This document shows positions 4,417 through 64,000 of a stretch of DNA of 64,000 nucleotides, piece after piece. Under the pieces are notes generated by a model that was given only the letters and a program-made list of their open reading frames with translations, had not been told where the DNA came from and searched no databases. The stretch comes from Ideonella oryzae (GTDB lineage Bacteria > Pseudomonadota > Gammaproteobacteria > Burkholderiales > Burkholderiaceae_C), in the NCBI RefSeq assembly GCF_024055665.1, contig NZ_JAMXMC010000004.1, positions 124,001-188,000 of the forward strand. The letters are read 5' to 3'. Each line of letters begins with the position of its first letter. Positions within the stretch are counted from its first letter, which is position 1. Made by a program: the position numbers and the translations under genes.

Positions 4417-4421
4417 GCGCC

Positions 4422-5267: not shown

Positions 5268-5317
5268 AAGGAGAAAGGATAACTCAGCACCCGGCCCCGG
5301 CACGGCCAGAAACGACA

Positions 5318-5341
5318 CGGGCCGCCCGAAGGCGGCCCGCT
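5318..5341 (-). terminator. Stable UUCG-loop hairpin after ilvC
   Basis: On the minus strand CGGGCCGCC-TTCG-GGCGGCCCG (5339-5318) forms a 9-bp stem with a UUCG tetraloop 39 bases past the ilvC stop. Only a broken T-run follows, so it may be a weak terminator or an mRNA-stabilising end between ilvC and pssA. Confidence 0.5.
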
Positions 5342-5377
5342 TTTCCGGGGGCGGTGACCCAGGGTCACCGTCAGCGA

Positions 5378-6418
<1,041 letters not shown>

Positions 6419-6453
6419 TCAGGTCAGATAGCGGGATGGAGCGATCGCGGGGA

Positions 6454-6945
6454 TCAGACGCGCAGGATGCGCTCGCCGCGACCGATCCCGCTGGAGCCGG
6501 TGCGCACGGTTTCGAGGATGGCGGTGCGGTCGATCGCCTCGATGAAGGCGTCGAGCTTGCCGGCATCCCCGGTCAGTTCAATGGTGTAGCTCTTCTCGGT
6601 CACGTCGATGATGCGGCCACGGAAGATGTCGGCCATGCGCTTCATCTCCTCGCGTTCCTTGCCCACGGCACGGACCTTGATCAGCATGAGCTCGCGCTCG
6701 GTGTAGTGGCCTTCGGTCAGGTCCACGACCTTGACCACGTCCACCAGGCGGTTCAGGTGCTTGGTGATCTGCTCGATCACCTCGTCGGAACCGGTGGTGA
6801 CCACCGTCATGCGCGACAGCGACGGGTCTTCCGTCGGCGCCACGGTGAGGCTCTCGATGTTGTAGCCGCGGGCAGAAAACAGCGCCACCACGCGGGACAG
6901 GGCACCGGGCTCGTTCTCGAGCAACACGGCGATGATGTGTTTCAT
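6454..6945 (-). CDS. ilvH: Acetolactate synthase small (regulatory) subunit
   Basis: 163 aa, the same length as E. coli IlvH. An N-terminal ACT domain (about 4-75, starting HIIAVLLENEPGALSRV) binds valine for feedback control, and a C-terminal ACT-like domain follows. The start at 6945 is chosen over the ATG at 6951 because AGGAG lies seven bases before it and the family begins MKHII. It pairs with the large subunit encoded upstream. The 162-base gap to ilvB is longer than usual, and I see no structure of note in it. Confidence 0.95.
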   Translation of the reverse strand: MKHIIAVLLENEPGALSRVVALFSARGYNIESLTVAPTEDPSLSRMTVVTTGSDEVIEQITKHLNRLVDVVKVVDLTEGHYTERELMLIKVRAVGKEREEMKRMADIFRGRIIDVTEKSYTIELTGDAGKLDAFIEAIDRTAILETVRTGSSGIGRGERILRV

Positions 6946-7107
6946 GTGCATTCTCCTGGCGCGCTCTTCAGGACGGTGGCGGTAACCATCGCCCCTTGGC
7001 CACGCCTCTTGGCACGGTTGGGGAAGTTCAGCCTTGGCTGGAAGAGCAATGGCTTCCGGCGCGACCCGTGGCACGGTAATGCCACCGACCCGCCAGGACC
7101 ATCGACC

Positions 7108-8913
7108 TCACAGATCCTCGGCGCCGAGCAGCATCTCCGACAGACCCTTGCCCGCCCTGACCATGGGCCAGACGTTCTCGGTCGGGTCGGTGCGCACGTC
7201 CAGGAAGACGGTGCGGTCCTTCAGACGCATCATTTCCTTGAGGGCCGGCTCGATCTCCGAAGGCTTCTCGATCTTGATGCCCACGTGGCCATAGGCCTCG
7301 GCCAGCTTCACGAAATCCGGCAGTGCATCCATGTAGCTGCTGGAGTAGCGACCTTCGTAATCCAGCTCCTGCCACTGCCGCACCATGCCCAGGTAGCGGT
7401 TGTTGAGCGCAATGATCTTCACCGGCGTCTTGTACTGCTGGCAGGTCGAAAGCTCCTGGATGCACATCTGGATGGAGCCTTCGCCGGTGATGCAGAACAC
7501 ATCCGACTGCGGCTTGGCCAGCTTGATGCCCATCGCATACGGCAGGCCCACCCCCATCGTGCCTAGGCCGCCGGAGTTGATCCAGCGGCGCGGCTCGTCG
7601 AAGCGGTAGTACTGGGCCGCCCACATCTGGTGCTGGCCCACGTCCGAGGTGATGTAGGTGTCGGTGCCCCGGGTCATCTCCCACAGGGCCTCGACGACCT
7701 GCTGCGGCTTGATGACGTCCGGGCTGGTCCGGTAGGCCAGGCACTCGCGACGGCGCCACTCGTTGATCTGGCTCCACCACTGGGAGATCACCGCGGTGTC
7801 GGGCTTTTGCTGGGCTTCCTTGATCTGGGCGATCAACTCCTGCAGCACGTCCTTCACGTCGCCGACGATGGGGATATCCACCTTCACCCGCTTGGAGATC
7901 GACGAGGGGTCGATGTCGATGTGGATGATCTTGCGCTCCACCGAAGCGAAGTGCTTGGGGTTGCCGATCACCCGGTCGTCGAAGCGCGCGCCCACCGCCA
8001 GCAGCACATCGCAGTTCTGCATGGTCATGTTGGCTTCGTAGGTGCCATGCATGCCAGGCATGCCCAGGAACTTCGGATCGGAAGCGGGCGTGGCGCCCAG
8101 GCCCATCAACGTGTTGGTGACGGGGAAGCCCAGCATGTCGCAGAGCTGGCGCAGTTCGGCCGAAGCCTCGCCCAGGATCACGCCGCCACCCGAATAGATG
8201 TACGGACGCTTGGCGTTCAGCAGCAACTGGACTGCCTTGCGGATCTGCCCTCCATGCCCCTTCTTGACGGGGTTGTAGGAACGCATTTCCACATGGTCGG
8301 GATAGTGGAAGGTCGTGGTCTTGAGCGACACATCCTTGGGAATGTCCACCACCACCGGGCCGGGGCGGCCGGTACGTGCGATGTGGAAGGCCTTCTTCAG
8401 CGTCACTGCCAGATCACGCACATCCTTCACCAGAAAGTTGTGCTTGACCACCGGGCGGGTGATGCCGACCGTGTCGCATTCCTGGAAGGCATCCAGGCCG
8501 ATGGCCGCCGTGGGCACCTGGCCGGTGATGATCACCAGCGGGATGGAGTCCATGTAGGCGGTGGCGATGCCGGTCACGGCATTGGTCACGCCAGGGCCGG
8601 AAGTCACCAGAGCCACACCAACATCGCCCGTGGCGCGGGCATAGCCATCGGCGGCGTGGACGGCAGCCTGCTCATGACGGACCAGCACGTGCTGGATGCT
8701 GTCCTGCTGGTACAGCGCATCGTAGATGTACAGGACCGAGCCACCGGGGTAACCCCAGATGTGCCTGACACCCTCGGCCTGCAGGCAGCGCACGAGGATC
8801 TGGGAGCCGTTGAGCTCCTTGGGGGAGGAAGAAGACGTGGAGGAAGCGTTCGGAGAGGTGGCGCGCCCTTCAGAAGGGGCAGCCCGCTTGACGTCCGCGG
8901 CAGACATGTTCAT
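7108..8913 (-). CDS. ilvB: Acetolactate synthase catalytic (large) subunit
   Basis: 601 aa ThDP- and FAD-dependent enzyme forming acetolactate or acetohydroxybutyrate from pyruvate. Glu81 in VRHEQAAVHAADGYA is the ThDP-activating residue. The central FAD-binding domain runs about 220-370. The ThDP-binding segment starts with GEGSIQM (477) and ends ALNN about 26 residues later; Glu replaces the usual Asp of GDG, a change I believe is common in betaproteobacterial enzymes. A Ser/Ala-rich N-terminal extension (2-33) precedes the first domain. A GAGG site precedes the ATG. The 257-base divergent spacer to the sigma-factor gene has -10-like CATAAT elements in both directions but no clear leader peptide or attenuator. 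Confidence 0.96.
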   Translation of the reverse strand: MNMSAADVKRAAPSEGRATSPNASSTSSSSPKELNGSQILVRCLQAEGVRHIWGYPGGSVLYIYDALYQQDSIQHVLVRHEQAAVHAADGYARATGDVGVALVTSGPGVTNAVTGIATAYMDSIPLVIITGQVPTAAIGLDAFQECDTVGITRPVVKHNFLVKDVRDLAVTLKKAFHIARTGRPGPVVVDIPKDVSLKTTTFHYPDHVEMRSYNPVKKGHGGQIRKAVQLLLNAKRPYIYSGGGVILGEASAELRQLCDMLGFPVTNTLMGLGATPASDPKFLGMPGMHGTYEANMTMQNCDVLLAVGARFDDRVIGNPKHFASVERKIIHIDIDPSSISKRVKVDIPIVGDVKDVLQELIAQIKEAQQKPDTAVISQWWSQINEWRRRECLAYRTSPDVIKPQQVVEALWEMTRGTDTYITSDVGQHQMWAAQYYRFDEPRRWINSGGLGTMGVGLPYAMGIKLAKPQSDVFCITGEGSIQMCIQELSTCQQYKTPVKIIALNNRYLGMVRQWQELDYEGRYSSSYMDALPDFVKLAEAYGHVGIKIEKPSEIEPALKEMMRLKDRTVFLDVRTDPTENVWPMVRAGKGLSEMLLGAEDL

Positions 8914-9170
8914 TTTCGAACCTCTGTGAATTTCTCTGACGAAAAACCTTCGGTGCCCCTCCCCGCGCCCTCATGAGGCGGGATCGGAACCTGCGCGATC
9001 AACAACTGCCGACACCCGCTGTCGGGGCGGCCTGAGGACCCATTCGCAATAGTGCGAGGTCGCATTATGGCATCAACCCGAATCGGTTCTGGAGCGCAGC
9101 ACGCCGCCAATGACATAATCCGCGGTTCTCAGTCCGGTCTACCTGCCTTCAGGCCGGAGAGGTCCCCATC

Positions 9171-9743
9171 TTGGCCACCGACAAAGAACTCTCCGACTTC
9201 CTGGTCAGCGTCGAGAAACGCGCCTTCAAACGCACCGTATACACCGTGCGTGATGAAGATGCCGCCTTGGACATCGTCCAGGACGCCATGATCCGTCTGG
9301 CCGAGAAGTACGTCAGTCGCCCGGCTGCCGAGTTCCCGATGCTGTTCCAGCGCATCCTGTCCAATGCCACGATGGACTGGTTTCGGCGGCGCAAGGTCCG
9401 CCAGGCCGTGGAGCAGAACCTGTCGGACTTCGAGGGCGCCGACTCGGGAGACGGCGCGGACTTCGACCTGCTGGAGATGCTGGAAACCGTCGAGGGAAGC
9501 CTGGGTGCCGAGAGCGCGGCCGACACGGTGGGGCGGGAACAGATCCTGCTGGTCATTGAGCGGGAGGTGGCCCAGTTGCCCACCCGTCAACGGGAAGCCT
9601 TTCTCCTGCGTTATTGGGAAGAACTTGATGTGGCCGAAACGGCCAGTGTGATGGGGTGCTCGGAAGGCAGTGTGAAAACCCACTGCTCTCGGGCCGTGCA
9701 TGCACTGGCCAAATCGCTCAAAGCCAAAGGTATTGCGCCGTGA
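9171..9743 (+). CDS. Sigma-70-family (ECF-like) RNA polymerase sigma factor
   Basis: 190 aa. Region 2 is at about residues 18-75 (DEDAALDIVQDAMIRLAEKY, then FQRILSNATMDWFRRRK) and region 4 at about 130-185 (QLPTRQREAFLLRYWEELDV, helix-turn-helix around MGCSEGSVKTHCSRAVHAL). The TTG at 9171 is supported by GGAGAGG eight bases upstream and by the absence of a better start. The next gene overlaps its stop codon by GTGA and encodes a single-pass membrane protein, the classic place for an anti-sigma factor. The same gene order (sigma, DUF3619, DUF3106, RDD) is found in many Burkholderiales. The regulon is unknown. Confidence 0.9.
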   Translation: MATDKELSDFLVSVEKRAFKRTVYTVRDEDAALDIVQDAMIRLAEKYVSRPAAEFPMLFQRILSNATMDWFRRRKVRQAVEQNLSDFEGADSGDGADFDLLEMLETVEGSLGAESAADTVGREQILLVIEREVAQLPTRQREAFLLRYWEELDVAETASVMGCSEGSVKTHCSRAVHALAKSLKAKGIAP

Positions 9744-10213
9744 ACACCCGCTCCATTGCCCCGCAGCGGCTTCCCCAGGATGCCGCCAATCTGGAAACCC
9801 GGTTTGGCCTGCGCGTGAGTGCGGCCCTGTCCGAGCGCAGTGCAGCGCCCGGTCACGATGTCTCCGAACGCTTGCGGGTCGCCCGTGAGCAGGCACTCGC
9901 ACGTGCCCGGGAGGCGCGGGCCGCCCTGCCCGCCCGTGAAGCCAGGCAAGCCGGCAGCGTGATCATGCAAGGTTCCGGAACGCTGGCTCTGGGTGGCTCG
10001 CCGGAGGGTTCCCGCTGGTGGGCCCCCCTGGCCTCCCTGGCCCCGCTGCTGCTGCTGATCCTGGGCCTGATTCTCATCGACGAATGGCACGATCGCCTGC
10101 AGACGGCCACGGTCGCCGAGGTCGACTCGGCCCTGTTGTCCGACGATCTGCCCCCGGACGCCTACACCGACCCTGGCTTCAGCGAATTCCTGAAGGCCCC
10201 GGAGCAGCACTGA
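9740..10213 (+). CDS. DUF3619 single-pass membrane protein, candidate anti-sigma factor
   Basis: 157 aa from a GTG that overlaps the sigma-factor stop (GTGA). The N-terminal half is cytosolic, helical and charged (ALAREARAALPAREARQ). One membrane helix (about 93-111, LASLAPLLLLILGLILI) follows. The short exported C-terminus contains DDLPPDAYTDPGFSEFL, the conserved end of DUF3619. Topology, size and coupling resemble anti-sigma factors, but I see no zinc-binding HxxxCxxC motif, so the role is inferred from context only. Confidence 0.8.
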   Translation: MNTRSIAPQRLPQDAANLETRFGLRVSAALSERSAAPGHDVSERLRVAREQALARAREARAALPAREARQAGSVIMQGSGTLALGGSPEGSRWWAPLASLAPLLLLILGLILIDEWHDRLQTATVAEVDSALLSDDLPPDAYTDPGFSEFLKAPEQH

Positions 10214-10223
10214 CCCTCTGCCG

Positions 10224-10982
10224 ATGAAGCCTGCCCCCTTTCCCGCACGGTTGCACCGCCACGCCCTGGGTCTGGCGTTGTGTCTGATCGCCAGTGTCTG
10301 CGCCTGGGCCCAACCCGCTCCGGCCGCCTCGGGCACGCGCTGGCAGGAACTGTCGGCCGCACAGCAGCATGCCCTGGCCCCGCTGTCCAAGGACTGGGAT
10401 CAACTCCCTGAAGAGCGTCAGCGCAAATGGCAGGACGTGGCCCGTCGCTTCGACCAGATGACCCCCGCCCAGCGCCAGCGTGTTCAGCAGCGCATGAGCG
10501 AATGGGCCCGGATGAGCCCGCAGGAGCGGGATCGGGCTCGACTGAACTACCAGAAGGCGCAGGAGCTTTCCGCCACCGAGCGACAGTCCCGCTGGGAGGC
10601 CTACCAGGCACTCAGCCCCGAGCAGCGCAACGCACTCGCCGCCAAGGCCAAGCCCGCGTCCGCCACGGGCGACGCCAACGCCTTGCGCAAACTGCGCCGG
10701 GCCCCCGTGGATGCCCAGGCGCCAAAGTCAAACATCGTGAACCCCAGCAAGGGGCCGGGCACCGCGCCCCGCCCCGTCTCGCCTGTCCTGGTTCAAGGGC
10801 GACCCGGGGCAAGCACATCGCTGGTGAACGAGCGCATGAAGCCGCCGGCTCACCAACCTGCCGGACAGCCCAAGATCACGGCCTCGCCGACCCAGGTTGA
10901 TCGACACACCCTGCTGCCTCGCCAGCCGGGCCCCGCCCCGGCCAAGCAGGGAGCTCAGCCTCCCTCCGGCGCCAAGCCTTGA
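10224..10982 (+). CDS. DUF3106 periplasmic protein
   Basis: 252 aa with a signal peptide (about 1-30, cleavage near AWA-QP). Residues 38-145 contain three or four degenerate helical repeats of the form W..L..AQ..AL..L...W, the hallmark of DUF3106 (SAAQQHALAPLSKDWDQLPE, TPAQRQRVQQRMSEWARMSP, SATERQSRWEAYQALSPEQR). They resemble the LTXXQ/CpxP-like helical proteins that sense envelope stress. The C-terminal 100 residues are Pro/Ala-rich and probably disordered. It lies ten bases after DUF3619, so it probably belongs to the sigma-factor operon and may act as its periplasmic sensor; that is inference. Confidence 0.8.
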   Translation: MKPAPFPARLHRHALGLALCLIASVCAWAQPAPAASGTRWQELSAAQQHALAPLSKDWDQLPEERQRKWQDVARRFDQMTPAQRQRVQQRMSEWARMSPQERDRARLNYQKAQELSATERQSRWEAYQALSPEQRNALAAKAKPASATGDANALRKLRRAPVDAQAPKSNIVNPSKGPGTAPRPVSPVLVQGRPGASTSLVNERMKPPAHQPAGQPKITASPTQVDRHTLLPRQPGPAPAKQGAQPPSGAKP

Positions 10983-10984
10983 AG

Positions 10985-11518
10985 ATGCCGACTCAGCGCA
11001 CCGTCCCCGCCTCCGAATCCAGTGCCGGCCCCTTGACCACTCCGTCGATCCTGCGCCGTCTGGCAGCCTTCGTTTATGAAGGTGTGCTGCTGTTCGGTGT
11101 GCTGTTCGTGTCCGGGTGGCTCTACTCGACCCTGACACAGCTCAAGGATCCCGGGCAGCAGGGCACCCTGGGTCTGCAACTCTTCCTGCTGCTGGTCCTG
11201 GCGGTGTACTTCGTCTGGTTCTGGAGCCGTGGTGGCCAGACGGTGGCGATGAAGGCCTGGCACATCCGACTGATGGATCGCGAAGGGCGCCCCGTCACCC
11301 AGGCCCGTGCGCTGGCACGCTTCGCCCTGGCCTGGCTCTGGTTCCTGCCCGCCTTGCTGACCGCCAAGCTGGCTGGCCTGCACGGGGGAGCCCTGTTCGG
11401 CCTGATGTTCGTCGGCGTGCTGGCCTATGCCGCACTGGCACGGTTGCACCCGGACCGACAGTTCTGGCATGACGCCGCCTGCGGCACCCGTCTGGTGGAC
11501 TGGCGTCCAGCCCGATGA
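10985..11518 (+). CDS. RDD-family membrane protein
   Basis: 177 aa with an RDD domain: RRLAAFVYEGVLLFGVLF (RDD-like first helix), a second hydrophobic segment (LFLLLVLAVYFVWFW), then GQTVAMKAWHIRLMDREGRP and two further membrane helices. It ends with HDAACGTRLVD, typical of the family. Function is unknown; some RDD proteins affect ion transport or membrane stress. An in-frame TTG at 10979 would overlap the DUF3106 stop and is an alternative start. Its stop overlaps dgkA by ATGA. Confidence 0.85.
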   Translation: MPTQRTVPASESSAGPLTTPSILRRLAAFVYEGVLLFGVLFVSGWLYSTLTQLKDPGQQGTLGLQLFLLLVLAVYFVWFWSRGGQTVAMKAWHIRLMDREGRPVTQARALARFALAWLWFLPALLTAKLAGLHGGALFGLMFVGVLAYAALARLHPDRQFWHDAACGTRLVDWRPAR

Positions 11519-11904
11519 GCTCCCCCTTCGAGCGTCGCACCGGCCTGTCCCGGATCATCCACGCCTTCGGCTACTCGCTGGCCGGCTTGGCGTCCGCCCT
11601 TCGCAGCGAAAGCGCCTTTCGCCAGGAAAGCGCGCTGGCCGTGGTCCTGCTGCCCGCCGCTTTCTGGCTGGGCAGCAACTGGGTCGAGATCGGCCTGCTG
11701 GCCGGTTCGATCATCCTGGTGCTGGTGGTGGAACTGCTGAACACTGCAGTGGAGTCCGCCATCGACCGGATCGGACCGGAGCGGCATGAGCTCTCCGGGC
11801 GGGCCAAGGATCTGGGCAGCGCCGCCGTGCTGTTGAGTCTGCTGCTCGCCGGCGGCCTGTGGGCGGCTGCGTTGTGGCAACGTTTTGGAGGCAGCGGCGC
11901 ATGA
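11515..11904 (+). CDS. dgkA: Diacylglycerol kinase (membrane, DgkA type)
   Basis: 129 aa with three membrane helices. The DgkA signature [20 protein letters not shown] (about 76-95) includes the catalytic Glu and the Asn-Thr-Ala-Glu metal/ATP site. It phosphorylates diacylglycerol so that it can re-enter phospholipid synthesis. Its ATG overlaps the RDD stop and its stop overlaps the next gene's ATG, so the three are translated as a coupled unit. Confidence 0.93.
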
Positions 11905-12497
11905 GCCAACGGCCCTTTTCGGTGTGTGTCTACTGCGGCTCCCGTCCTGGCAGCCAAGCCATCTACGCGGACAGCGCCAAGCGCCTGGGCGCAGAGCTGG
12001 GGCGCCGGGGCTGGCGCCTGGTCTACGGTGGCGGGCATGTGGGGCTGATGGGCATCGTGGCGGATGCCGCCCTGGCGGCCGGTGCACCGGTCCTGGGGGT
12101 GATCCCGCAGCGCCTGCAAGCCCGCGAGGTGGGACACCGGGGCCTGACCGAGCTGGTGGTGGTGGACAACATGCACCAGCGCAAGCAGCGCATGGCCGAG
12201 GAGGCCGACGCCTTCATCGCCCTGCCCGGCGGCCTGGGCACCTTCGAAGAACTGTTCGAGGTCTGGACCTGGCACCACCTGGGCTACCACAGCAAGCCGA
12301 TCGGCCTGCTGAACGTCGCTGGCTTCTACCAGCCGCTGCTGGATTTCATGGCCGCAGCCCACAGCCAGGGCTTTGTTGATGCCAGCCAGCAGCAGGCGCT
12401 GACGGTGGATGACACTCCCGCCCGCCTGCTGGACCGCATCGCAGCCCGCGCCGGCCTGCCGGGACAGCACGGCACCGAGGACTACGCCGCCATCTGA
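11901..12497 (+). CDS. LOG-family phosphoribohydrolase-like protein (TIGR00730)
   Basis: 198 aa Rossmann-fold protein with the family's [16 protein letters not shown] loop and the [16 protein letters not shown] motif (about residues 106-121), which binds the nucleotide and carries the catalytic Glu. Bacterial homologues hydrolyse AMP or cytokinin nucleotides to ribose 5-phosphate and a free base. The ATG at 11901 overlaps the dgkA stop. It is the last gene of the operon and converges with glnB; no terminator is evident between them. Confidence 0.88.
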
Positions 12498-12510
12498 GGC
12501 GGCGACAAGC

Positions 12511-12894
<384 letters not shown>

Positions 12895-14595
12895 TTAAGC
12901 ACGGAACTTCGAGGTGATCGGGTAGCGCCAATCCCGCCCGAATGCCCTGTGGGTGATTCGGATGCCCACAGGGGCCTGGCGACGCTTGTACTCGTTGATC
13001 TTGATGAGCCGGGTCACCTTCTCGACATCCTCGCGCGCGAAGCCGGCCGCGACGATCTCCTCGATGCCCTGGTCTTCCTCCATGTAGCGCGCCAGGATGG
13101 CGTCCAGCACCTCATAGGGCGGCAGGCTGTCCTGGTCGGTCTGGTCCGGACGCAGTTCGGCCGAGGGCGGACGGGTGATGATGCGCTCGGGGATCACCGG
13201 CCCGATGCTGCCATCGGCACGCCGGGTCGGCTGCTGGTTCTTCCACTCGGTCAGGCGATAGACCAGGGTCTTGGCCACATCCTTGATGACCGCGAAGCCG
13301 CCCGCCATGTCGCCATAGAGCGTGCAGTAGCCGGTGGCCATCTCGCTCTTGTTGCCGGTGGTCAGCACGATGGACCCGGTCTTGTTCGACAGAGCCATCA
13401 GCAGGGTGCCGCGGATACGGGCCTGGATGTTCTCCTCGGTCGTGTCCTCGGGCAGGCCGGCAAACTGGGTAGCCAGCGCCTGCTTGAAACCCTCGAACAC
13501 CGGGGAGATGGCGATCTCGTCGTAGCGCACGCCCAGGCGCTCGGCCATGTCACGGGCGTCCAGCCAGGAGATATCGGCCGTGTAGGGCGAGGGCATCATC
13601 ACCGCCCGCACCTTGTCGGCCCCCAGGGCGTCCACCGCAATGGCCAGCACCAGGGCGGAATCGATGCCGCCGGACAGGCCGATGATGGCGCCGGGAAAGC
13701 CGTTCTTGCCGATGTAGTCGCGCACGCCCATCACCAGCGCCTGCCAGGCTTGGCCCTCCAGCGGTGGCAGCGGAGCCAGCGGGCCGCTCACCCGGCCGTC
13801 GGCTCCAACCGACACGAGCAGCGTGGCCGGCTCGAAGCTGGGCGCGCGAGCGCCCACCAGGCCCTGGGCATCCAGCGCGAAGGAGGCGCCATCGAACACC
13901 ACCTCATCCTGCCCACCCACCATGTGGGCATAGAGCAGCGGCAGGCCCAGCGCGCGCGCGCGTCGGGCCATGAGCGACTCGCGCTCGCCATGCTTGTCCA
14001 GGTGGAAGGGCGAGGCATTGATCGCGCACAGCACCTGCGCACCGGCGGCCTTGGCGGCCTCGGCCGGCTCGTCAAACCAGGCGTCCTCGCAGATCAGCAG
14101 ACCGCAGCGCAGCCCGCCCACATCGAACACCACCGGCCCGCAACCGGCATCCCGCCCAGAGGCAAAGTAGCGCCGTTCGTCGAAGACCTGGTAGTTGGGC
14201 AGCTCGCGCTTGCAATAGGTGGCCAGCACCTGCCCCCCTGCCAGCACCGAGGCCGCATTGAAGCGCCGCGGCAGGGAATAGGACTTCGACCTAAGATCGT
14301 CCTGCGCATCCCAGTCCTGCGGGTGGCCGACGACGACGTGCAGGCCCGCGCAGTCGGACAGCTCGGCGGCCAACTCGCGCAGTGTGCGGGCGCAGGCCGC
14401 CATGAAGGCCGGGCGCAGCAGCAGATCCTCGGGCGGGTAGCCCGTCAGCGCCAGCTCGGGCGCCAGCACCAGCTGGGCGCCCTGCGCATGGGCCTCGCGG
14501 GCAGCCTGGGCGATCAGGCGGGCATTGCCGGCCAGATCGCCGACGGTGGCGTTGATCTGGGCCAGGGCGACGGAAAGGGTGACCGGAGAGGACAT
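12895..14595 (-). CDS. nadE: Glutamine-dependent NAD+ synthetase
   Basis: 566 aa in two domains. The N-terminal nitrilase-type glutaminase (1-270) has the Glu47-Lys129-Cys169 triad (PELALTGYPPEDL, YCKRELPNY, GLLICEDAWF). The C-terminal synthetase has the SGGIDS P-loop at 308-313 and TTGNKSEMATGYCTLYGDMAGG. It amidates deamido-NAD using ammonia from glutamine. No other in-frame start is close. The start codon shares the CATG palindrome with the divergent gene at 14594, so each promoter must lie inside the other gene or the starts are used alternatively. Confidence 0.95.
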   Translation of the reverse strand: MSSPVTLSVALAQINATVGDLAGNARLIAQAAREAHAQGAQLVLAPELALTGYPPEDLLLRPAFMAACARTLRELAAELSDCAGLHVVVGHPQDWDAQDDLRSKSYSLPRRFNAASVLAGGQVLATYCKRELPNYQVFDERRYFASGRDAGCGPVVFDVGGLRCGLLICEDAWFDEPAEAAKAAGAQVLCAINASPFHLDKHGERESLMARRARALGLPLLYAHMVGGQDEVVFDGASFALDAQGLVGARAPSFEPATLLVSVGADGRVSGPLAPLPPLEGQAWQALVMGVRDYIGKNGFPGAIIGLSGGIDSALVLAIAVDALGADKVRAVMMPSPYTADISWLDARDMAERLGVRYDEIAISPVFEGFKQALATQFAGLPEDTTEENIQARIRGTLLMALSNKTGSIVLTTGNKSEMATGYCTLYGDMAGGFAVIKDVAKTLVYRLTEWKNQQPTRRADGSIGPVIPERIITRPPSAELRPDQTDQDSLPPYEVLDAILARYMEEDQGIEEIVAAGFAREDVEKVTRLIKINEYKRRQAPVGIRITHRAFGRDWRYPITSKFRA

Positions 14596-21831: not shown

Positions 21832-21906
21832 TGGTGGGCGGTGCAGGGTTCGAACCTGCGACCCCTGCCGTGTGAAGGCAGTGCTCTACCGCTGAGCTAA
21901 CCGCCC
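21832..21906 (-). tRNA. tRNA-Val (anticodon CAC)
   Basis: 75 bases including encoded CCA. It has a seven-base-pair acceptor GGGCGGT/ACCGCCC, D-arm AGCTCAGCGGTAGAGC, anticodon arm CTGCC-TTCACAC-GGCAG (anticodon CAC, reads GUG), and T-arm with GGTTCGAACC. It differs from its neighbour by one D-loop base. Confidence 0.95.
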
Positions 21907-21933
21907 GGTCTGCGGGTCTGGCTGAAGCGAATC

Positions 21934-22008
21934 TGGTGGGCGGTGCAGGGTTCGAACCTGCGACCCCTGCCGTGTGAAGGCAGTGCTCTACCACTGAGCT
22001 AACCGCCC
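21934..22008 (-). tRNA. tRNA-Val (anticodon CAC), second copy
   Basis: 75 bases including encoded CCA; identical to the copy at 21832-21906 except for T in place of C in the D-loop (AGCTCAGTGGTAGAGC). It lies 91 bases after dnaQ on the same strand, so both tRNAs may be processed from a transcript that begins at lgt-dnaQ. Confidence 0.95.
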
Positions 22009-56333: not shown

Positions 56334-57224
56334 TCAGCCTGCGGGCGTGTAGAGCACGGCCCGCGGCGGGCGGCACAACCCCCACAGGCGCAGGCCGGCC
56401 GCCTGCGCCGCCTGCACGCCCAGCGCCGTGGGCGCGGACACCGTGGCCAGCGCCTGCAAGCCCACACGCGCGCACTTGGCCACCAGCTCGTGGCTGGCGC
56501 GGCTGGACATCAACACCACGCCGGGCGCGCCCAGCAACCCTTGCCGGGCCAGCACGCCGATCAGCTTGTCCAGCGCGTTGTGCCGACCCACATCCTCGCG
56601 GGCCCAGCGCAGCCCACCTGCCAGGTCGGCCCAGGCCGCCACGTGCACCGCGCCGGCCTGCAGGTTGAGCGGCTGGAAGGACGGCAGCTGGGGGATCACC
56701 TGAGCCAGCAGCGCAGGATCGACGCGGTCCAGCCAGTCCGCAGCCGGCAGGCTTGGCGGCAACAGCTCCAGCGCCTGCAGACTCTCGATGCCACAGATGC
56801 CGCAACCGGTGCGCCCAGCCAGGGTGCGACGCCGCCGCTTGAGGCCCTCCAGCCGGCGCGGCGACAGTTCGATGTGCACCTCCCAGGCCGGGGGACTCCC
56901 CGGCGTCTGGCAGGCCGCGGGCCGGGCTTCGACGTCCCGCAGCTCATCGGCCGAAGCCACGATGCCCTCGCTGAGCGCGAAGCCCAGGGCGAAGTCCTCC
57001 AGATCCAGCGGCGAAGCCATCATCACCGCGTGCGAGATGCCGTTGAACACCATGGCCACCGGCACCTCGTCGGCCAGCCAGTCATCTGCCCGGTCCAGGG
57101 CTGCACCAGCCACGCTGCGCTGCACCGGCATGCGGACCAATCCTGGCGGCGCGACAAAGGCTTCCTCGGAGGGATCGGTGGCTGGAGCGGGCTTGACGAC
57201 GGGATGGGCGAGCGACCGGGACAT
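56334..57224 (-). CDS. fdhD: Formate dehydrogenase accessory sulfurtransferase FdhD
   Basis: 296 aa. FdhD moves sulfur from IscS to the Mo-bisPGD cofactor of formate dehydrogenase. Cys141 and Cys144 in GRTGCGICGIES are the functional Cys pair, EVPVAMVFNG and LDLEDFALGFALSEGIV precede them, and the SRASHELVAKCARVG segment follows. ATG at 57224 fits the family start, but a GTG at 57269 would overlap the upstream stop as GTGA and could be used. It is the last gene of the four-gene operon after selC. No formate dehydrogenase gene is in the window. Confidence 0.92.
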   Translation of the reverse strand: MSRSLAHPVVKPAPATDPSEEAFVAPPGLVRMPVQRSVAGAALDRADDWLADEVPVAMVFNGISHAVMMASPLDLEDFALGFALSEGIVASADELRDVEARPAACQTPGSPPAWEVHIELSPRRLEGLKRRRRTLAGRTGCGICGIESLQALELLPPSLPAADWLDRVDPALLAQVIPQLPSFQPLNLQAGAVHVAAWADLAGGLRWAREDVGRHNALDKLIGVLARQGLLGAPGVVLMSSRASHELVAKCARVGLQALATVSAPTALGVQAAQAAGLRLWGLCRPPRAVLYTPAG

Positions 57225-57265
57225 GGTGGGCAGGATTATCGGCGGCCCTTCCCGGCCCTGCTGGC

Positions 57266-58498
57266 TCACATGAAATTGCGCGTGTGCAGCGCCGACAGCC
57301 GCGCGGCCTGCTCGGGCGCGAAACCCAGCCGCACAAGCTTGGCATGGCGCCCATCGGCCATGTCACCCATGAGCTGCTGGACCTGGGCATAGCCGTGGGC
57401 CACCTGGGCAGGTGAAAGACCGCCGGCCGCGATCAAGACCAGGGCGTCAAACACTTCCTCGTTGAGCCCGGAGGTGCCGGCCAGGGCATCAAAACGCTGC
57501 TCCACCGCGGCCGCCAGGCGGTGCCGGAAATCCGGCTCCTGCTGCAGCCGGTACAGCAGGTGCGACATGCCCAGGGCCACATGCCGGGCCTCGTCCCGTG
57601 CGGCCAGGCGGGCGATCTGGCGGGTCAGCGGATCGGGCGCCTGGGCCTGCAGGAACTGCAGCAGATTGACGAAGGTGCCCTCGCCCAGCACAGACAACAG
57701 AAAGCTCGCGACCGAGAAGTCCGGCTCGTCCAGCAGGCTCTTGAGCGAGGCCTGCCCACCGGCCGTGGACAGGGCAGGTGCCAAGCCCCCATGGCGGATG
57801 CGCCGGGTGAACACCTCGATGTGGCGGGCCTCGTCGCAGACCTGCATGGCCAGCGCGGCCTGCATCTCGCGGAAGTGCGGATGCAACTGCCCCAGGAAGC
57901 GCGCAGGCACCAGCAGAGCGGCATTCTCGTTCTCGATCATGTAGGTCATGACCTGGACGATGGCCTGCTCCACCGGGGCCGGCAGTTCCACCGGTTGCGA
58001 CCAGTCGATGGCCTCGTCCGGGTTCCACTGCGCTGCCACGGCCTGGGCGTAGAGATCGGCCGCGCTGTCGCTCCAGGCCTCGTCCTTGTACACCAGCCGG
58101 AAATGATGGGCGGGTGCCCCGGCCTCCACGGTGGCACCACGCGCGGCCAGCCCCCAGTGGGGCAGGGCCTCCTGCGCCACGGCCCCGGGCTGGCGCGGGT
58201 CGATCGCCCCCGTGGGCTCGGCCCCTCGCCAGCGGCCGCTCTGCAGACCGCCGCGGGTCACCCGCGCCACGCTCTGGGCCTCGGCTGGCCGCTCGCAGCC
58301 ATGGCCCTGGCTGCGGCACCAGTCGGCCAGTTGGACGGCCCAGCCCGGCGCCCGGCCCTGGACCTCAAGCAGGCCGCCCACCGGCAGCGCGATCAGCGCC
58401 TGCTTGACCAATAGATGGGCCCCGGCGTCAAAGCCGAGGGCCTCAATATCGATACGCGGGTTCGGTGATGTGGCCTTGGTCGTCATAGAAGTGCTCAT
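57266..58498 (-). CDS. TusA-like/ferritin-like diiron fusion protein
   Basis: 410 aa, unusual fusion. Residues 15-70 look like the TusA sulfur-carrier fold (LLVKQALIALPVGGLLEVQG, then AVQLADWCRSQGHGCE), but the catalytic Cys-Pro-x-Pro is replaced by DAGAHLLV, so it cannot carry sulfur in the usual way. Residues 170-390 form a ferritin-like four-helix bundle with diiron ligands E191, E223/H226 (DEARH), E273 and E303/H306 (DEARH). Oxygen- or radical-type chemistry, or metal storage, is possible; the substrate is unknown. The start at 58498 overlaps the upstream gene by 56 bases; an alternative start at 58486 shortens that. Confidence 0.75.
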   Translation of the reverse strand: MSTSMTTKATSPNPRIDIEALGFDAGAHLLVKQALIALPVGGLLEVQGRAPGWAVQLADWCRSQGHGCERPAEAQSVARVTRGGLQSGRWRGAEPTGAIDPRQPGAVAQEALPHWGLAARGATVEAGAPAHHFRLVYKDEAWSDSAADLYAQAVAAQWNPDEAIDWSQPVELPAPVEQAIVQVMTYMIENENAALLVPARFLGQLHPHFREMQAALAMQVCDEARHIEVFTRRIRHGGLAPALSTAGGQASLKSLLDEPDFSVASFLLSVLGEGTFVNLLQFLQAQAPDPLTRQIARLAARDEARHVALGMSHLLYRLQQEPDFRHRLAAAVEQRFDALAGTSGLNEEVFDALVLIAAGGLSPAQVAHGYAQVQQLMGDMADGRHAKLVRLGFAPEQAARLSALHTRNFM

Positions 58499-59309
58499 CG
58501 CTCACCGCCCGCTCCAGCAGGGCATACCCCGTACTGCGGCCCGGCTGCCAGGCCTTGAGGCCTTCGAGTTCCAGCAGCGGCCGCACCGCGGGGTCGTTCC
58601 AGTCCATCGCCAGCAGGATCTCGCCAAAGCGGCGGGCCACCTCGGCCGGCACCCCGGGGCTGACAGTCATGTTGCAGTGATCGAACAGGCCGGTGGTGGC
58701 GACGATGCGGCTGCCCCCTGCCGGCAGCGTGCCCTCGTGCGCGAACGCGCGGTGGTTGCCGGCGATCATCCAGGCCGCGTCGATCTCGCCGTTCATCAGC
58801 GCCAGCGCCGCATCGCGCTCGCCGCCGATGTGGTCGCCATGTTTGCCGCCCAGCACGTCGAAGCGACGGGCGGTGTAGTCACGCCCGGCCACCAGATCGG
58901 CTTGATAGCGCAGATGGTCCAGCGGAATCAGCGTGGCCTGGGGCGAGTCGATCGCCCCGAAGCCGATGGTCTTGCCCCGCAGGTCGGCCAAAGCCTGTAC
59001 CGGGCTGCCGCTGCGCACCACCAGCACCGACGCCAGGTCGATGTCGCTGTCGCGCATGGCCAGGGCCTGCACTTCCTGCCCTCTGGCGCGCGCCATGCGC
59101 TCGGCCCGCACCCAGGCCAACGGGGAATTCCAGGCGAAGGCGATGTCGCCCTTGAACTGGGCCTCCACCTGGGTCTCGTAGTTCGAATAGAGCAGGTAGT
59201 CGAAGGCAAAGCCACGCTCGGCAAAGTAGGCCTTGAAGCCCTCCCAGATGGTGACCACTTTGGGCGCGTAGGCCACGGCCCCCAGCATCCACGGTTGTGC
59301 TTGCGTCAT
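58443..59309 (-). CDS. PhnD-type substrate-binding-fold protein without signal peptide
   Basis: 288 aa. The fold is that of phosphonate/phosphite-type binding proteins: MLGAVAYAPKVVTIWEGFKA, then LYSNYETQVEAQFKGDIAFAWN, and LRGKTIGFGAIDSPQATLI. The N-terminus (MTQAQPWMLG) has no hydrophobic signal or lipobox, so it appears cytosolic. No ABC permease or ATPase genes are adjacent. This could be a cytosolic ligand binder or enzyme of binding-protein fold (as in HMP-P synthase). It starts 16 bases after the flavoprotein gene and overlaps the diiron gene, so it is co-transcribed. Confidence 0.8.
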   Translation of the reverse strand: MTQAQPWMLGAVAYAPKVVTIWEGFKAYFAERGFAFDYLLYSNYETQVEAQFKGDIAFAWNSPLAWVRAERMARARGQEVQALAMRDSDIDLASVLVVRSGSPVQALADLRGKTIGFGAIDSPQATLIPLDHLRYQADLVAGRDYTARRFDVLGGKHGDHIGGERDAALALMNGEIDAAWMIAGNHRAFAHEGTLPAGGSRIVATTGLFDHCNMTVSPGVPAEVARRFGEILLAMDWNDPAVRPLLELEGLKAWQPGRSTGYALLERAVSDEHFYDDQGHITEPAYRY

Positions 59310-59325
59310 GTCGAAGATCCTCTGT

Positions 59326-60441
59326 TCAGGCCAGGGGCAGGCCACAGAGGGCCCGGCCGATGAAGTCGTACAGCACGTCCGAGGTCGGCGCCATGACCGA
59401 GGCCGCGCGGGCATCCCGGAACAGGCGTTCAATGCCCACGTCCTTGCGGAAGGCCGCACCGCCGCCGATCCGCATTGCGGTGTCGGTCACCTCCAGCGCC
59501 GCCTCGGCCGCACAGGCCTTGACCTCCAGCACGCGCAGCATCGCATCGGGCCGGCCCGCGGCCAGGGCGGCCACCGTGTCGTCGCGCAGCAGCCGCGCCT
59601 GGTCAACACGAATGCGTGCCCGGGCCAGGTAGGCACGGATGGTGGGCAGGTCGGCCAGCGAACTGTCGCTCTCGGCGAAGCGGGTGCGGGTGAGGTGGGC
59701 GGTCACGCGGGCCAGCACACCGTCCATCAGGCCGATGGAGGCCGAAGCGATCAGGCTGGCAAAGACCGGCAGCTCCTCGCCGTTCATGATGTCGGCCCCC
59801 GCGCCATCGGCACCCAGCATGGCGTCCTCGCCCACCACCACGCCCTGCGCCGTCACGGGCGCCGAGGCATTGCCGCGCAGGCCCAGCCCGTCATAGCGGA
59901 CCGGGATGCTCAGGCCATCGGCCCGGCTGCTGACCAGCCACAGCGTGCTGGCCCCCTCGGCAGCCACCGGCCTGGACGACCACACATACGAATCGGCCTC
60001 GCCCGCCGAAGTGACCATGCTCTTCTGGGCATCCAGCCGATAGCCATCGGAAACACGCTGGGCCGTGCCGACCGGAGCCCAGAAGTGGCTGCGCGAACCG
60101 ATCTCGGACCAGGCCAGCGTGGACACATGGCGGCCCGCCGCGATCTCGCGCCGTACGGCCTCGGTGCCATGCTTCTCGATGAGCACCGTGGCGGCGTAAT
60201 GCATGCACACCACCATGGCGGTGGAGGGGCAGTCCTGCGCGATGCGCTCGACCACCGCAGCCGCATCAGCCAGCCCGCCCCCCAGGCCCCCGACAGCCTT
60301 GGCACTCACCAAGCCCAACAGACCCGACGCGCCCAGCGCCTGCAGTGCAGCACGCGGGAAGCGTCCCTCTCGGTCCGTGTCCAGCGCCGCAGGGGCGATG
60401 GTGTTCTGGGCGATGGGCTCGAGAAGGGCGAGATGGCTCAT
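59326..60441 (-). CDS. Acyl-CoA dehydrogenase-like flavoprotein
   Basis: 371 aa. The N-terminal helical domain (1-110) includes GGLGGGLADAAAVVERIAQDCP and MVVCMHYAATVLIEKHG. The middle beta domain (AWSEIGSRSHFWAPVGTAQR) and the C-terminal helical domain (GIERLFRDARAASVMAPTSDVLYDFIG) follow. The FAD-binding layout is that of the ACAD superfamily, but the catalytic Glu region is not clearly conserved, and the sequence resembles the monooxygenase-like branch (DszC/SfnC-type) as much as true dehydrogenases. It is the first gene of the operon, 213 bases downstream of tRNA-Sec. Confidence 0.8.
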   Translation of the reverse strand: MSHLALLEPIAQNTIAPAALDTDREGRFPRAALQALGASGLLGLVSAKAVGGLGGGLADAAAVVERIAQDCPSTAMVVCMHYAATVLIEKHGTEAVRREIAAGRHVSTLAWSEIGSRSHFWAPVGTAQRVSDGYRLDAQKSMVTSAGEADSYVWSSRPVAAEGASTLWLVSSRADGLSIPVRYDGLGLRGNASAPVTAQGVVVGEDAMLGADGAGADIMNGEELPVFASLIASASIGLMDGVLARVTAHLTRTRFAESDSSLADLPTIRAYLARARIRVDQARLLRDDTVAALAAGRPDAMLRVLEVKACAAEAALEVTDTAMRIGGGAAFRKDVGIERLFRDARAASVMAPTSDVLYDFIGRALCGLPLA

Positions 60442-60653
60442 AGAATGCGACTCCGGCTGAGCCGCCGGCAGCCGTGCTCGGCACGCCTCAACCCACCGTG
60501 CAGGGCCATGGCCTTGCGGCGACCTCCGGGTGCAGACCTGCAACACGCCCTGCCTGACGGCGGGTGAAGAACGCCGGCAAAAAGCACCGGGTTCAGGTTC
60601 AGATGATTATTGCACCCGCATGCCGTGAAGCCACGGTGACGGCCCACGGCGGG

Positions 60654-60746
60654 CGGAAGGCAGCCGGAGTCGAACCGACCAGGGAGCGGCTGACGCCCCC
60701 TACCGGGTTTGAAGCCCGGGCGCACCACCGGATGCGTTTGCCTTCC
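60654..60746 (-). tRNA. selC: tRNA-Sec (anticodon TCA)
   Basis: About 93 nt. It has the 8-bp acceptor stem typical of tRNA-Sec (GGAAGGCA / TGCCTTCC), G as discriminator, anticodon arm CCGGG-CTTCAAA-CCCGG with TCA, a long variable arm (GGGGGC and GCTCCC region) and a T-arm with GTTCGACTC. The following bases read CCC, so the 3' CCA is not fully encoded. It lies 13 bases after the selB stop, on the same strand, so selA-selB-selC form one cluster. Confidence 0.92.
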
Positions 60747-60759: not shown

Positions 60760-62727
60760 TCAAGGGGGCGGCGCGGATTGTAGGGGGCCCTCAGAGGCCT
60801 GTTCGGGCTGGGGCCACCCGGCTTCGGCCCGCAGCACATGGCTGTCCTGCACGCGCCGGGTGTACCCCACCCGGTTGAAGAATTCCAGCACCTGGATGGC
60901 CCGCTTGCGGCCCAGGCCGGCGTGGTCCCGGAACACGCGGGCCTCGACCTGCCCGCCGGGGCCGCGTGCCGCCAGCAGGGCCAGCAGGCCCGACAGCAGC
61001 TGCACCTGCGAGGCGGCATAGAACAGGTCCTTGACGACCTGGAACAGCTGCCCCTGGCGGGCCAGCTTGCGCAGGAGTTGGCGGACCACCTCCTCGGGCG
61101 CACCGGCGCGACCAGCCAGGTCACGCACCCAGGGCGGGTCGAAACCGCCCTCCTCCACCCAGGGCAGCAGGCGCTCGGCCAGCGCCCGCTCGCCCTCGCT
61201 CAGGCGCACCTCGTGCCCGGGCAGGTGCAGCCAGGCGCCGCTGGACGCAATGGCGCCGTCCTGCCACAGCGCCGCCAGCAGGGCGCGCCACAGCGCATCG
61301 TGCTGCGGCTGGGCCTGGCCAGGCAGGGCCATGCGACGCAGCCGGGCGGCGTTCACCCCCGGTTCATCGGGCGTGCGCTCGTGAAAGCGCGCCAGCGCCG
61401 CCAGCACCTGCTCGCGCCAGCGCTGCCAGACGGCCTCGGTCAGCAGCAGCGCGTCTTCCGGCCCGCTGGGCAGCTGCACCAGCCCGGCTTCGACCAGGGC
61501 CAGCGCCTCGGGCGGGCGGCCCATCAGCAGCGCCAGGCGGCTGCGTAGCAGGCCGGTGGGCGACTGCGCCACCAGATTGGCCAGCGGCCCACCGGCCAAC
61601 GCCGCTTCCAGCGCATCCAGGTAGGCCAGGCGTTCGGTGCTGCGGCGCTTGCGCTCGGGGGCGAAGGGGTCGATCACCGCCCCGCCGCCGATGGTGCGGC
61701 TGGCCTGGGCATTGCGCAGGATGAAGCGGTCGCCAGGCAGCACGAACACCGACTGCTCCAGGACCAGCTGCACCCGGGCCGTCTGGCCGCGCGCCAGTGC
61801 GGCATCGTCCAGCAGGGCCACGTGGGCCGTCTGGTGGCTGGTGCCCACATGCACATGCACCGGGGCCCACTGGGCCAGGGCCGGTGCATCCGACAACAGC
61901 TGCAGGCGCACGTCCATGCGGGTGCTGGCCTGCAGGGCCCTCGGGTCGGCGATCCAGTCGCCGCGCCGGATCGCCTCACGCTCGATGCCGGCCAGGTTCA
62001 GCGCGCAGCGCTGGCCGGCCACGCCGCGGGCGGCCGCCTGGTTCTGGGCATGGATGGAGCGCACCCGCACTCGCTGCCCGGAGGCGGAATGGGCCACCGT
62101 GTCGCCCACCGCCACCTGACCGCCGAACACCGTGCCGGTGACCACGGTGCCCTGCCCGGCCAGCGTGAACACGCGGTCCACCGCCAGACGGAAAAGACCG
62201 TCCTGCCGGCGCTGGGCATGGTGCTCGGCCAGGGCCCACAGATGGGCGCGCAGCGCGGCCACGCCGGGGTCGCCGTCGGCCGTGGCGGCCGTCTCGAACA
62301 CGGGGGCGGTGGCCAGCGGCGTGCCGGCCAGCAGCGCGGCCAGCTCGGCCCGCACCTCGGCCACCCGGGCGGGCTCGGTGCGGTCCACCTTGGTCAGTGC
62401 CACCGTGCCTTCGCGCACGCCCAGCAGGCCCAGGATGGCCAGGTGCTCGCGGGTCTGCGGCATCACGCCGTCGTCGGCCGCCACCACCAGCAGGGCATGG
62501 TCCACGCCCACGGCGCCGGCCGCCATGGTGTGGACGAACTTCTCGTGGCCGGGCACATCGATGAAGCCCAGCACCTCACCGCTGGCCAGCGGCGCATAGG
62601 CATAGCCCAGCTCGATGGAGATGCCGCGCGCCTTCTCTTCCTTCAGGCGATCGGTGTCCACGCCGGTGAGCGCGCGCACCAGCGTGGTCTTGCCATGGTC
62701 GATGTGACCGGCGGTGCCGATGATCAT
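60760..62727 (-). CDS. selB: Selenocysteine-specific elongation factor SelB
   Basis: 655 aa. The N-terminal EF-Tu-like GTPase has [13 protein letters not shown] (G1, 4-16), DVPGHEKF (G3, 57-64) and TKVD (G4). Domains II and III follow ([15 protein letters not shown]). The C-terminal third holds winged-helix repeats that bind the SECIS hairpin in selenoprotein mRNAs ([27 protein letters not shown] near the end). It delivers Sec-tRNA-Sec to UGA. Its ATG overlaps the selA stop by four bases. Confidence 0.95.
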
Positions 62728-64000
62728 CGCGCGCGGTCCTCCGCCAGGGCCTGCTGCAGGGCGCCGAACTGGGCGGCGAAAGCGGCCTCGTCACGCTCGT
62801 CCAGGCAGCGCAGGTCCAGCCACAGGGCGTTGTCGCCGATGCGGCCGATCACCGGCCGCGCCAGGCCACGCCAGGCCGCTTCCAGACGCGAGAGGGCCCG
62901 GCCGGCCCGCCTGGCTTCGCTGGGCTCAATGCGCAGGCCCGCGCTGGGCAGGGTGTTGACCGGCAGCGCGCCACTGCCGATCTGGCTGAACATGGGCGCC
63001 AGGGACACTTGGTAGGCGCTGCCCAGGGCGGCCTGCAGCGGCGCCAGCAGGCGCTGGGCCTGGGCCTGCATGGCGGCCTGCGGGCGGGTGAACAGGCGCA
63101 GGGCCGGCAGGCGCTCGGCCAGGAATTCCGGCGCCTGGTACAGGCGCAGCACCGGCTCCAGCGCGGCGAGGGTGAGCTTGCCCACCCGCAGCGCGCGCTT
63201 GAGCGGGTTCTTCTTGATCTTGGCGATCAGGTCCTTGCGGCCGACGATCAGGCCGGCCTGCGGGCCGCCCAGCAGCTTGTCGCCACTGAAGCTCACCACG
63301 TCGGCCCCGGCGGTCACCACATCGCGCACCGTTGGCTCGTGCGGCAGGCCCCAGTCGGCCAGGTCGATCAGGGTGCCGCTGCCCAGGTCCACCGCCAGCG
63401 GCAGGCCCTGGGCATGGGCGATGCGGGCCACCTCGCTCTCGGCCACGCTGGCGGTGAAGCCGGTGACCGCGTAGTTGCTGCAATGCACCTTCATCAGCAG
63501 CCCGGTCTTGGGCGTGATGGCGCCTTCGTAGTCACGGGCGTGGGTGCGGTTGGTGGTGCCCACCTCCACCAGCCTGGCGCCGGCGCGGGCCATGATGTCG
63601 GGAATGCGGAAGGCCCCGCCGATCTCCACCAACTCGCCGCGGGAGACGATGACCTCCTTGCGCGCGGCCAGGGCGTTGAGCATCAGCAGCACCGCGGCGG
63701 CATTGTTGTTGACCACGGTGGCGGCCTCGGCGCCGGTCAGCTCGCACAGCAGGTCGTTGACCAGGTCGTCGCGGTCGCCCCGGCCACCGGTGGCCAGGTC
63801 GTACTCCAGGTTGGCCGGGCTGGTCAGGGCCTGCACCACGGCCTGCACCGACTCGTCTGGCAGCAGGGCCCGGCCCAGGTTGGTGTGCAGCACCGTGCCG
63901 GTGAGGTTGAAGACCGCCCGCAGGCGGGGTGCCCGCTGGCGCTGCAGGTCAGCCTCGACGGCGCGCGCCAGCGCCTCGGGCGCGGCCATCTCGGCTGCCA
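62724..64000 (-). CDS. selA: L-seryl-tRNA(Sec) selenium transferase SelA (5' end outside window)
   Basis: The visible part is about 424 residues, with roughly 55-60 N-terminal residues beyond the right edge. It holds [14 protein letters not shown]-type sequence (here [19 protein letters not shown]), the PLP lysine in [14 protein letters not shown], and the later [24 protein letters not shown]. It converts Ser-tRNA-Sec to Sec-tRNA-Sec using selenophosphate. An ATG at 63989 is internal to the family alignment and not the real start. SelD, the selenophosphate synthase, is not in the window. Confidence 0.95.

Follow-up and report, generated by a model that had tools for sequence, protein, structure and literature searches.

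Introduction

The way in which scarce, toxic selenium is captured and handed over to selenophosphate synthetase (SelD) is poorly known. According to one review, a high-affinity transport system for selenium has yet to be identified (PMC9312934), and YedE, YedF, DUF3343 and LysR_Se have been predicted as selenium accessory genes (PMC5322559; PMC9312934). Of the described relatives of the proteins considered below, PtxB holds its ligand by a Tyr, an STS-H motif and a further Tyr (Y208) that caps the non-oxygen substituent (PMC5700983), and Rv1680 has been listed, on structural grounds, as a putative phosphonate transporter component (PMC8562490). Here we analyze a stretch of 64,000 nucleotides from Ideonella oryzae (contig NZ_JAMXMC010000004.1, positions 124,001 to 188,000 of the forward strand; this whole stretch is called the window), in which three adjoining genes encode an acyl-CoA-dehydrogenase-superfamily flavoprotein (ACAD), a PhnD-fold protein (SBP) and a TusA-like/diiron oxygenase-like fusion (TusAdi). 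These genes form a conserved triad that is very probably a selenium module, which makes the question of selenium capture and hand-over testable.

A conserved three-gene unit

A scan with an SBP alignment found 507 relatives, and the 80 best were analyzed as loci, with up to 10 kb fetched on each side and less on small contigs; locus gene counts refer to these 80 and include partial matches, for example at L059. The order ACAD-SBP-TusAdi occurs in 72 loci, the order SBP-ACAD-TusAdi in two (Luteimonas), and ACAD-SBP-TusAdi-ACAD in another two (Lampropedia). Of the remaining four loci, L077 has no visible ACAD, and L085, L100 and L112 lie close to contig ends. The loci were fetched through SBP alone, and because 78 of the 80 have an adjoining ACAD and 78 an adjoining TusAdi, the association of the three genes is more than chance. 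The unit of interest consists of ACAD, SBP and TusAdi; fdhD is not part of it, being directly next to the triad in L048, L028/L056 and L057 alone, loci that all come from the window's genus. Two overlapping locus sets were used (L056 is L028, L109 is L031, L121 is L037, and others are likewise shared), and their numbers are not additive.

The triad is present in Variovorax, Paraburkholderia, Massilia, Nitrosospira and other genera, and TusAdi is found in 19 of 399 genomes of the same family, a sample drawn by the tool in which TusAdi is split across contigs in G320 and in pieces in G580. In the latter genome (L044, approximately 8966-10235) ACAD and SBP are intact, but the neighboring TusAdi matches are divided among several pieces and reading frames, and TusAdi appears broken. 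At L059 of Pararobbsia alpina (9649-11112) a whole SBP lies amid pieces of ACAD and TusAdi, reflecting either broken genes or an artefact of match merging. In Lampropedia (L119, 8786-13162; L121, 9677-13155) a second ACAD lies between TusAdi and selD; of the upstream ACAD, L119 has an intact copy and L121 a fragment. Clustering of open reading frames (ORFs) from loci without sel genes revealed no further conserved neighbor that stood out, within the reach of a simple caller based on third-position GC content (GC3) that may miss small genes. The distant diiron homologues L045-L047 (28-29% identity) were set aside; they are AurF-type proteins whose fetched stretches contain no ACAD or SBP matches.

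Association with selenium genes

At least one of selA, selB, selD and mnmH (>45% identity) lies in the fetched stretch of 27 of the 80 loci, and a tRNA-Sec gene in 20. The arrangements are varied: the triad lies between selA and selB-selC in Variovorax, Rhizobacter, Pseudacidovorax and Hydrogenophaga; it follows selA-selB-selC in Ideonella, Hylemonella and Ramlibacter; it precedes selD in Xenophilus and its kin; it is followed by the second ACAD and then selD in Lampropedia; and in Luteimonas the reordered triad is convergent with selD-selB-selA. The ten Variovorax loci contain mnmH in ten cases, fdhD in eight, and both selD and a TIGR04553 transporter in nine. Four SelD proteins and one MnmH protein from sel-linked loci were tested, and all score above their NCBIfam cut-offs. 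Outside the Proteobacteria, a plasmid of Miltoncostaea (Actinomycetota) carries an SBP of 62.9% identity beside an ACAD, approximately 6 kb from selD-selA-selB. By a rough estimate, the chance that a random site in a 5 Mb genome lies this near a sel locus is ∼1%. The closeness to selABC noted in the original prediction holds, with sel genes in 27 of the 80 stretches; fdhD is found in 12 of the 80.

Co-occurrence across genomes points in the same direction. SelA was scored at a threshold of E < 1e-30, which sets aside 12 weak matches among the 118 genomes found at E 0.001 and leaves 106 of 399. It is present in all 19 genomes having TusAdi versus 106 of 399 overall (Fisher p 3e-12, kinship among these same-family genomes being ignored); counted by genus with weak matches included, the values are 13 of 13 versus 55 of 141 (p 2e-6, kinship again ignored). 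A further 50 triad genomes without nearby sel genes were taken from the 53 named loci lacking them, three small contigs being omitted; L109 and L115 belong both to these 50 and to the 19. SelD is present in 47 of the 50, MnmH in 44 and SelA in 24. The value for SelD compares with a background of 202 of 280 genomes in the order (p 1e-4, without regard to kinship), and in that order sample all five TusAdi genomes have SelD. In the remaining three SelD was not found; these are a Delftia bin, an Ideonella azotifigens draft and a Burkholderiaceae bin in which a fragment of SelD lies at the edge of a contig. SelA was not found at E 1e-30 in 26 of the 50, some of which are incomplete bins. Because about half of these genomes show no SelA, the triad is partnered with SelD, not with selenocysteine or formate dehydrogenase. 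Location with sel genes in 27 of 80 loci and SelD in 47 of 50 and five of five genomes, kinship aside, mark the triad as belonging with selenium genes. In the order sample, SelD frames of G744, G779, G820, G859, G895 and G984 contain one in-frame TGA, probably denoting a selenocysteine-containing SelD in some families.

Altered active sites of the triad proteins

The original prediction described the first gene product as flavin monooxygenase-like; its sequence instead places it in the acyl-CoA dehydrogenase superfamily, with short-chain acyl-CoA dehydrogenases as its nearest solved relatives. The nearest NCBIfam model is Rv1679 FadE16, at 354.5 bits and thus short of the cut-off of 600. The Glu of the YEGT motif is the catalytic residue of acyl-CoA dehydrogenases, and isovaleryl-CoA dehydrogenase uses an alternative site for the catalytic Glu. 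In ACAD the motif reads MAPT, and residue 351 is Ala in 21, Gly in one and Ser in one of 23 aligned rows. Since the usual catalytic Glu is replaced, ACAD appears unlikely to carry out the ordinary dehydrogenation of acyl-CoA.

The structural model of SBP (predicted local distance difference test score, pLDDT, 93.3) has a type II binding-protein fold with PtxB as the best solved match (E 1.2e-22, Foldseek), and its solved fold relatives include PtxB, PhnD, HtxB, ArrX and AioX, whose structures were determined with phosphite, phosphonates, hypophosphite, arsenate and arsenite. The nearest NCBIfam model, Rv1680, is matched at 217.3 bits and its cut-off of 400 is missed. Residues Y44 and S122 align with the ligand-binding Tyr and Ser of PtxB. 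The TS of the STS motif is replaced by PQ, so that S-P-Q is read in 76 of 76 proteobacterial rows, and the position of the His of STS-H varies between alignments and is uncertain. At the cap position, Cys212 is present in 79 of 79 triad-type SBPs, and Tyr in 12 of 12 TIGR04553-type and three of three PhnD/PtxB rows. No leader or signal peptide is visible in the SBP N-termini, read by eye with no predictor run, and no ATP-binding cassette (ABC) gene adjoins the triad in the window or recurs as a conserved neighbor of the loci, as the original prediction had said in calling the protein one without transport partners. Of the features of a PhnD/PtxB-type transport protein, only the fold is found; the signal peptide, the permease and ATPase neighbors, and the STS-H motif with its capping Tyr are not. 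The lack of a leader and of transport partners argues against a phosphonate-transporter role for the SBP relatives seen here, and SBP is probably a cytosolic relative of the phosphite- and phosphonate-binding proteins.

Residues 15-81 of the TusAdi model are arranged as strand-helix-strand-helix-strand-strand, a TusA-type fold. The Pfam TusA match is weak for the window protein alone (E 0.063), but with E values up to 1 the model is matched in 39 of 45 aligned relatives, the best at 3.4e-6. The catalytic Cys of TusA sulfurtransferases lies in a CPxP motif. This Cys is missing from the TusA-like domain: residues 14-40 are free of Cys in 43 of 45 rows, and the motif CPxP was absent from the eight rows inspected for it. 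Pfam AurF matches all 45 relatives, in which the six presumed diiron ligands (E191, E223, H226, E273, E303 and H306) are invariant; the ligand motifs align with DEARH and DEVRH of a VlmB homologue, and the fold of the domain matches VlmB, aldehyde-deformylating oxygenase (ADO) and R2lox. The modeled fold and the E, ExxH, E, ExxH ligand pattern place TusAdi among the putative ferritin-like diiron oxygenases, with iron binding and O2-dependent activity presumed. With Cys at the SBP cap, ACAD without its usual Glu and a TusA domain without CPxP, the three proteins look repurposed.

Genes and coordinates in the window

The features of the locus are collected in Table 1. The gene order on the minus strand is selA, selB and tRNA-Sec, followed by ACAD-SBP-TusAdi-fdhD. 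The coordinates agree with the original prediction of four genes on one strand after selA-selB-selC, with 16 bases between ACAD and SBP and a 56-base overlap of SBP and TusAdi, and Pfam and NCBIfam matches bear out its identification of a PhnD-type protein, a TusA-like/diiron fusion and fdhD. The overlap is 56 bases from the first ATG of TusAdi and 44 from the next; among 54 relatives in which both ORFs were cleanly called, with start codons picked by script, the two overlap in 51, and 44 bases is the most frequent value (18 of 54). The GTG start of fdhD sits inside GTGA. Its product, a partner protein of the formate dehydrogenase, passes TIGR00129 (177.4 bits, cut-off 140.9) and misses NF001943 (152.9 of 269).

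Table 1. Features of the selenium-gene and triad locus in window coordinates.
Feature	Coordinates	Strand	Evidence or remark
selA	62724-63989	minus	TIGR00474 573.1 bits, cut-off 267.9
selB	60760-62727	minus	TIGR00475 450.4 bits, cut-off 242.25
selC, tRNA-Sec(tca)	60652-60746	minus	ARAGORN
ACAD, triad gene 1	59326-60441	minus	Pfam Acyl-CoA_dh N, M, C domains
SBP, triad gene 2	58443-59309	minus	Pfam Phosphonate-bd 106.9 bits
SBP Cys212 codon	58674-58676	minus	stands for ligand-capping Tyr208 of Trichodesmium PtxB; register from 5jvb
TusAdi, triad gene 3	57266-58498	minus	Pfam AurF 30.2 bits, cut-off 29.6
TusA-like domain of TusAdi, residues 14-81	58256-58459	minus	topology of model
Diiron-domain core of TusAdi, residues 174-320	57539-57979	minus	presumed ligands E191, E223, H226, E273, E303, H306
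fdhD	56334-57269 (GTG 57269, or ATG 57224)	minus	Pfam FdhD-NarQ 209.7 bits

Directly upstream of the window lie fdhE and genes for a cytochrome b subunit, an iron-sulfur subunit and the large subunit of a formate dehydrogenase, the last of which carries an in-frame TGA (ARV*HGP). In the same genome contig C3 has selD and mnmH as immediate neighbors, and the sole SelD (TIGR00476, E 1e-60) is this general one; a TIGR04553 binding protein was not found in the genome. Elsewhere in the window the tRNA scan detected two tRNA-Val(cac) genes near each other (21832-22008).

Proposed function and alternatives

The reading we favor, with somewhat better than even confidence, is that ACAD, SBP and TusAdi constitute one dedicated, O2-dependent module of SelD-dependent selenium metabolism that probably supplies selenium. 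The selenium link is well supported, and the direction and chemistry given here are proposed. Under this proposal ACAD and TusAdi would oxidize a small, perhaps organic, selenium compound using O2; SBP would capture the resulting selenium-bearing anion, with selenium held against Cys212; and thiols would reduce the SBP-held selenium to selenide for SelD. The cysteine-poor TusA-like domain might recognize a partner or carrier instead of transferring sulfur. In PtxB the position of Cys212 is the one in contact with the non-oxygen substituent, which we count in favor of this proposal. Phosphate carriers have been reported in selenite uptake in several organisms (PMC9312934); by analogy this fits a phosphite-type pocket in SBP and proves nothing. 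That the triad acts upstream of SelD has about an even chance in our estimation, and the specific sequence of oxidation, capture and reduction is a doubtful proposal in its particulars.

Several observations weigh against a selenium supply module. The majority of loci (53 of 80) have no nearby sel gene, ten of the 27 sel-linked loci are from Variovorax and hence are not independent, and no sel genes lie near the triad relatives in actinobacterial L053 and L054. SelD is common in the order (202 of 280), and the tests ignore kinship. TusAdi is missing from 87 of 106 SelA genomes and 197 of 202 SelD genomes, so that it is not required for selenium use: the implication runs from the triad to selenium use and not the other way. 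Nor does the triad covary with TIGR04553, the binding protein of a putative selenate transporter, which is present in 13 of 40 triad genomes versus 12 of 40 SelD genomes without TusAdi, both sets having been hand-picked from lists. With these frequencies, and contrary to expectation, TIGR04553 was rejected as a partner or substitute of the triad. Descent of SBP from TIGR04553 is likewise unsupported, the SBP tree (long branches, one short row) showing no special kinship.

The main rival holds that the triad acts downstream of SelD, converting selenophosphate to an undescribed selenium metabolite or cofactor as a further SelD-dependent trait; SBP would then bind selenophosphate as an analogue of phosphite or phosphonate, with selenium at Cys212, and the flavoprotein and diiron enzyme (radical SAM in some Actinomycetota) would finish the product. 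The position of the triad directly before selD in Xenophilus and its kin, its occurrence with SelD regardless of SelA, and the PhnD-type fold with an invariant Cys at the cap site all suit this proposal. However, the triad is linked also to selA, selB, selC, mnmH and Sec formate dehydrogenase genes rather than to selD alone, the only SelD found in the window genome is the general one beside mnmH, and ORF clustering showed no conserved export, ligase or transferase gene beside the triad. We consider a downstream role rather unlikely, although the evidence does not decide between the two directions. Alternatively, the triad might belong to sulfur or general redox metabolism and share islands with sel genes through joint mobility or regulation, consistent with the 53 loci without nearby sel genes, with actinobacterial relatives that have Dsb/CcdA-like, deiodinase-like and glutaredoxin-type neighbors but no sel genes, and with the inclusion of sulfur-acquisition enzymes in the ACAD superfamily, although the SfnB model scores ACAD at 74 bits, far under its cut-off. 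The varied sel arrangements together with SelA in 19 of 19 and SelD in 47 of 50 genomes would be hard to reach by chance linkage, making this explanation improbable.

The original prediction suggested that the triad, together with FdhD, serves molybdenum formate dehydrogenase as an accessory pathway for its supply or protection. In the window genome the triad does have the Sec formate dehydrogenase and sel genes on one side and fdhD on the other, and L061 and L106, without sel genes, have formate dehydrogenase subunit genes nearby. Nevertheless, SelA was not detected in 26 of the 50 triad genomes, and all 12 stretches containing fdhD also contain sel genes, fdhD being in none of the 53 loci without them and adjoining the triad in one genus only. 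On these grounds, and by the refutation test that accompanied the original prediction, a formate-dehydrogenase-specific role is rejected as the general function, and we regard it as highly improbable. The accompanying suggestion of an unusual sulfur or selenium compound fared better, being the part of the prediction that the data favor. If the supply reading or its downstream counterpart is true, the triad represents either a missing selenium supply route or a further SelD-linked selenium trait.

Comparison with known systems

A literature search whose reach excluded supplements, most subscription papers and bioRxiv preprints found no link of these three proteins to selenium. Their folds are known; in the literature searched we found nothing described that matches the triad as a system or its chemistry, so that it appears new as a system with a putative function. 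YedE, YedF, DUF3343 and LysR_Se were found by a like logic of neighborhood and co-occurrence, and YedF also has a TusA/SirA-type domain, whereas none of them is ACAD, SBP or TusAdi, and the triad is not mentioned in the accessible parts of that paper (PMC5322559).

Among binding proteins, SBP shares the type II fold and the ligand Tyr and Ser with PtxB/PhnD, AioX and ArrX, and differs from PtxB/PhnD in having neither leader nor ABC partner, PQ for TS, and Cys212 for the capping Tyr. The TIGR04553 putative selenate-transporter protein belongs to the same superfamily (28.7% identity) and occurs on the same island in nine of the ten sel-linked Variovorax loci, but it retains STS and the capping Tyr, has ABC partners, forms a separate clade and occurs independently of the triad. 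TusAdi shares its fold and presumed diiron ligands with the azoxy synthase VlmB, AurF, aldehyde-deformylating oxygenase and R2lox, from which it differs by its fusion to a TusA-like domain and by identities of only 15-23%.

The closest likeness is to the group Rv1679 (FadE16)-Rv1680-Rv1681 (MoeX), which supplies the nearest NCBIfam models of ACAD and SBP, although the triad proteins miss both cut-offs (354.5 of 600 and 217.3 of 400). M. tuberculosis is not known to have sel genes. The same ACAD-SBP order, of the Rv1679-Rv1680 kind, is found on plasmids of Mycolicibacterium and Rhodococcus. In the Mycolicibacterium group the third gene also starts with a weak TusA match (E 0.013), and no other Pfam family is matched in the first 80 residues, but it encodes a radical SAM protein, not a diiron protein, and no sel genes lie beside L053 and L054; Rv1681 is presumably the counterpart of this gene. 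When compared by profile, TusAdi and the radical-SAM protein of Mycolicibacterium match weakly (E 0.061); the TusA match of the latter is better, though weak as well. That TusA match hints at a shared leading TusA-like domain with an interchangeable oxidase, diiron or radical SAM. According to the deposited annotation, the ACAD-SBP genes of L053 (M. vanbaalenii plasmid, 2330-13850) and L052 (5202-14847) are accompanied by deiodinase-like, carboxymuconolactone decarboxylase, DoxX, Dsb/CcdA and further radical-SAM genes; the deiodinase-like protein of such actinobacterial groups barely passes Pfam T4_deiodinase. Tentatively, and with less than even confidence, we propose a new selenium pathway around SelD, in which a cytosolic phosphite/phosphonate-type binder, made selenium-holding by a change of Tyr to Cys, would form or cleave a selenium compound jointly with a flavoprotein devoid of the usual base and an oxidase led by a TusA-like domain, of diiron type in Proteobacteria and of radical-SAM type in some Actinomycetota. 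By comparison only, the triad may offer a first lead on the uncharacterized actinobacterial gene groups of the Rv1679-Rv1680 kind.

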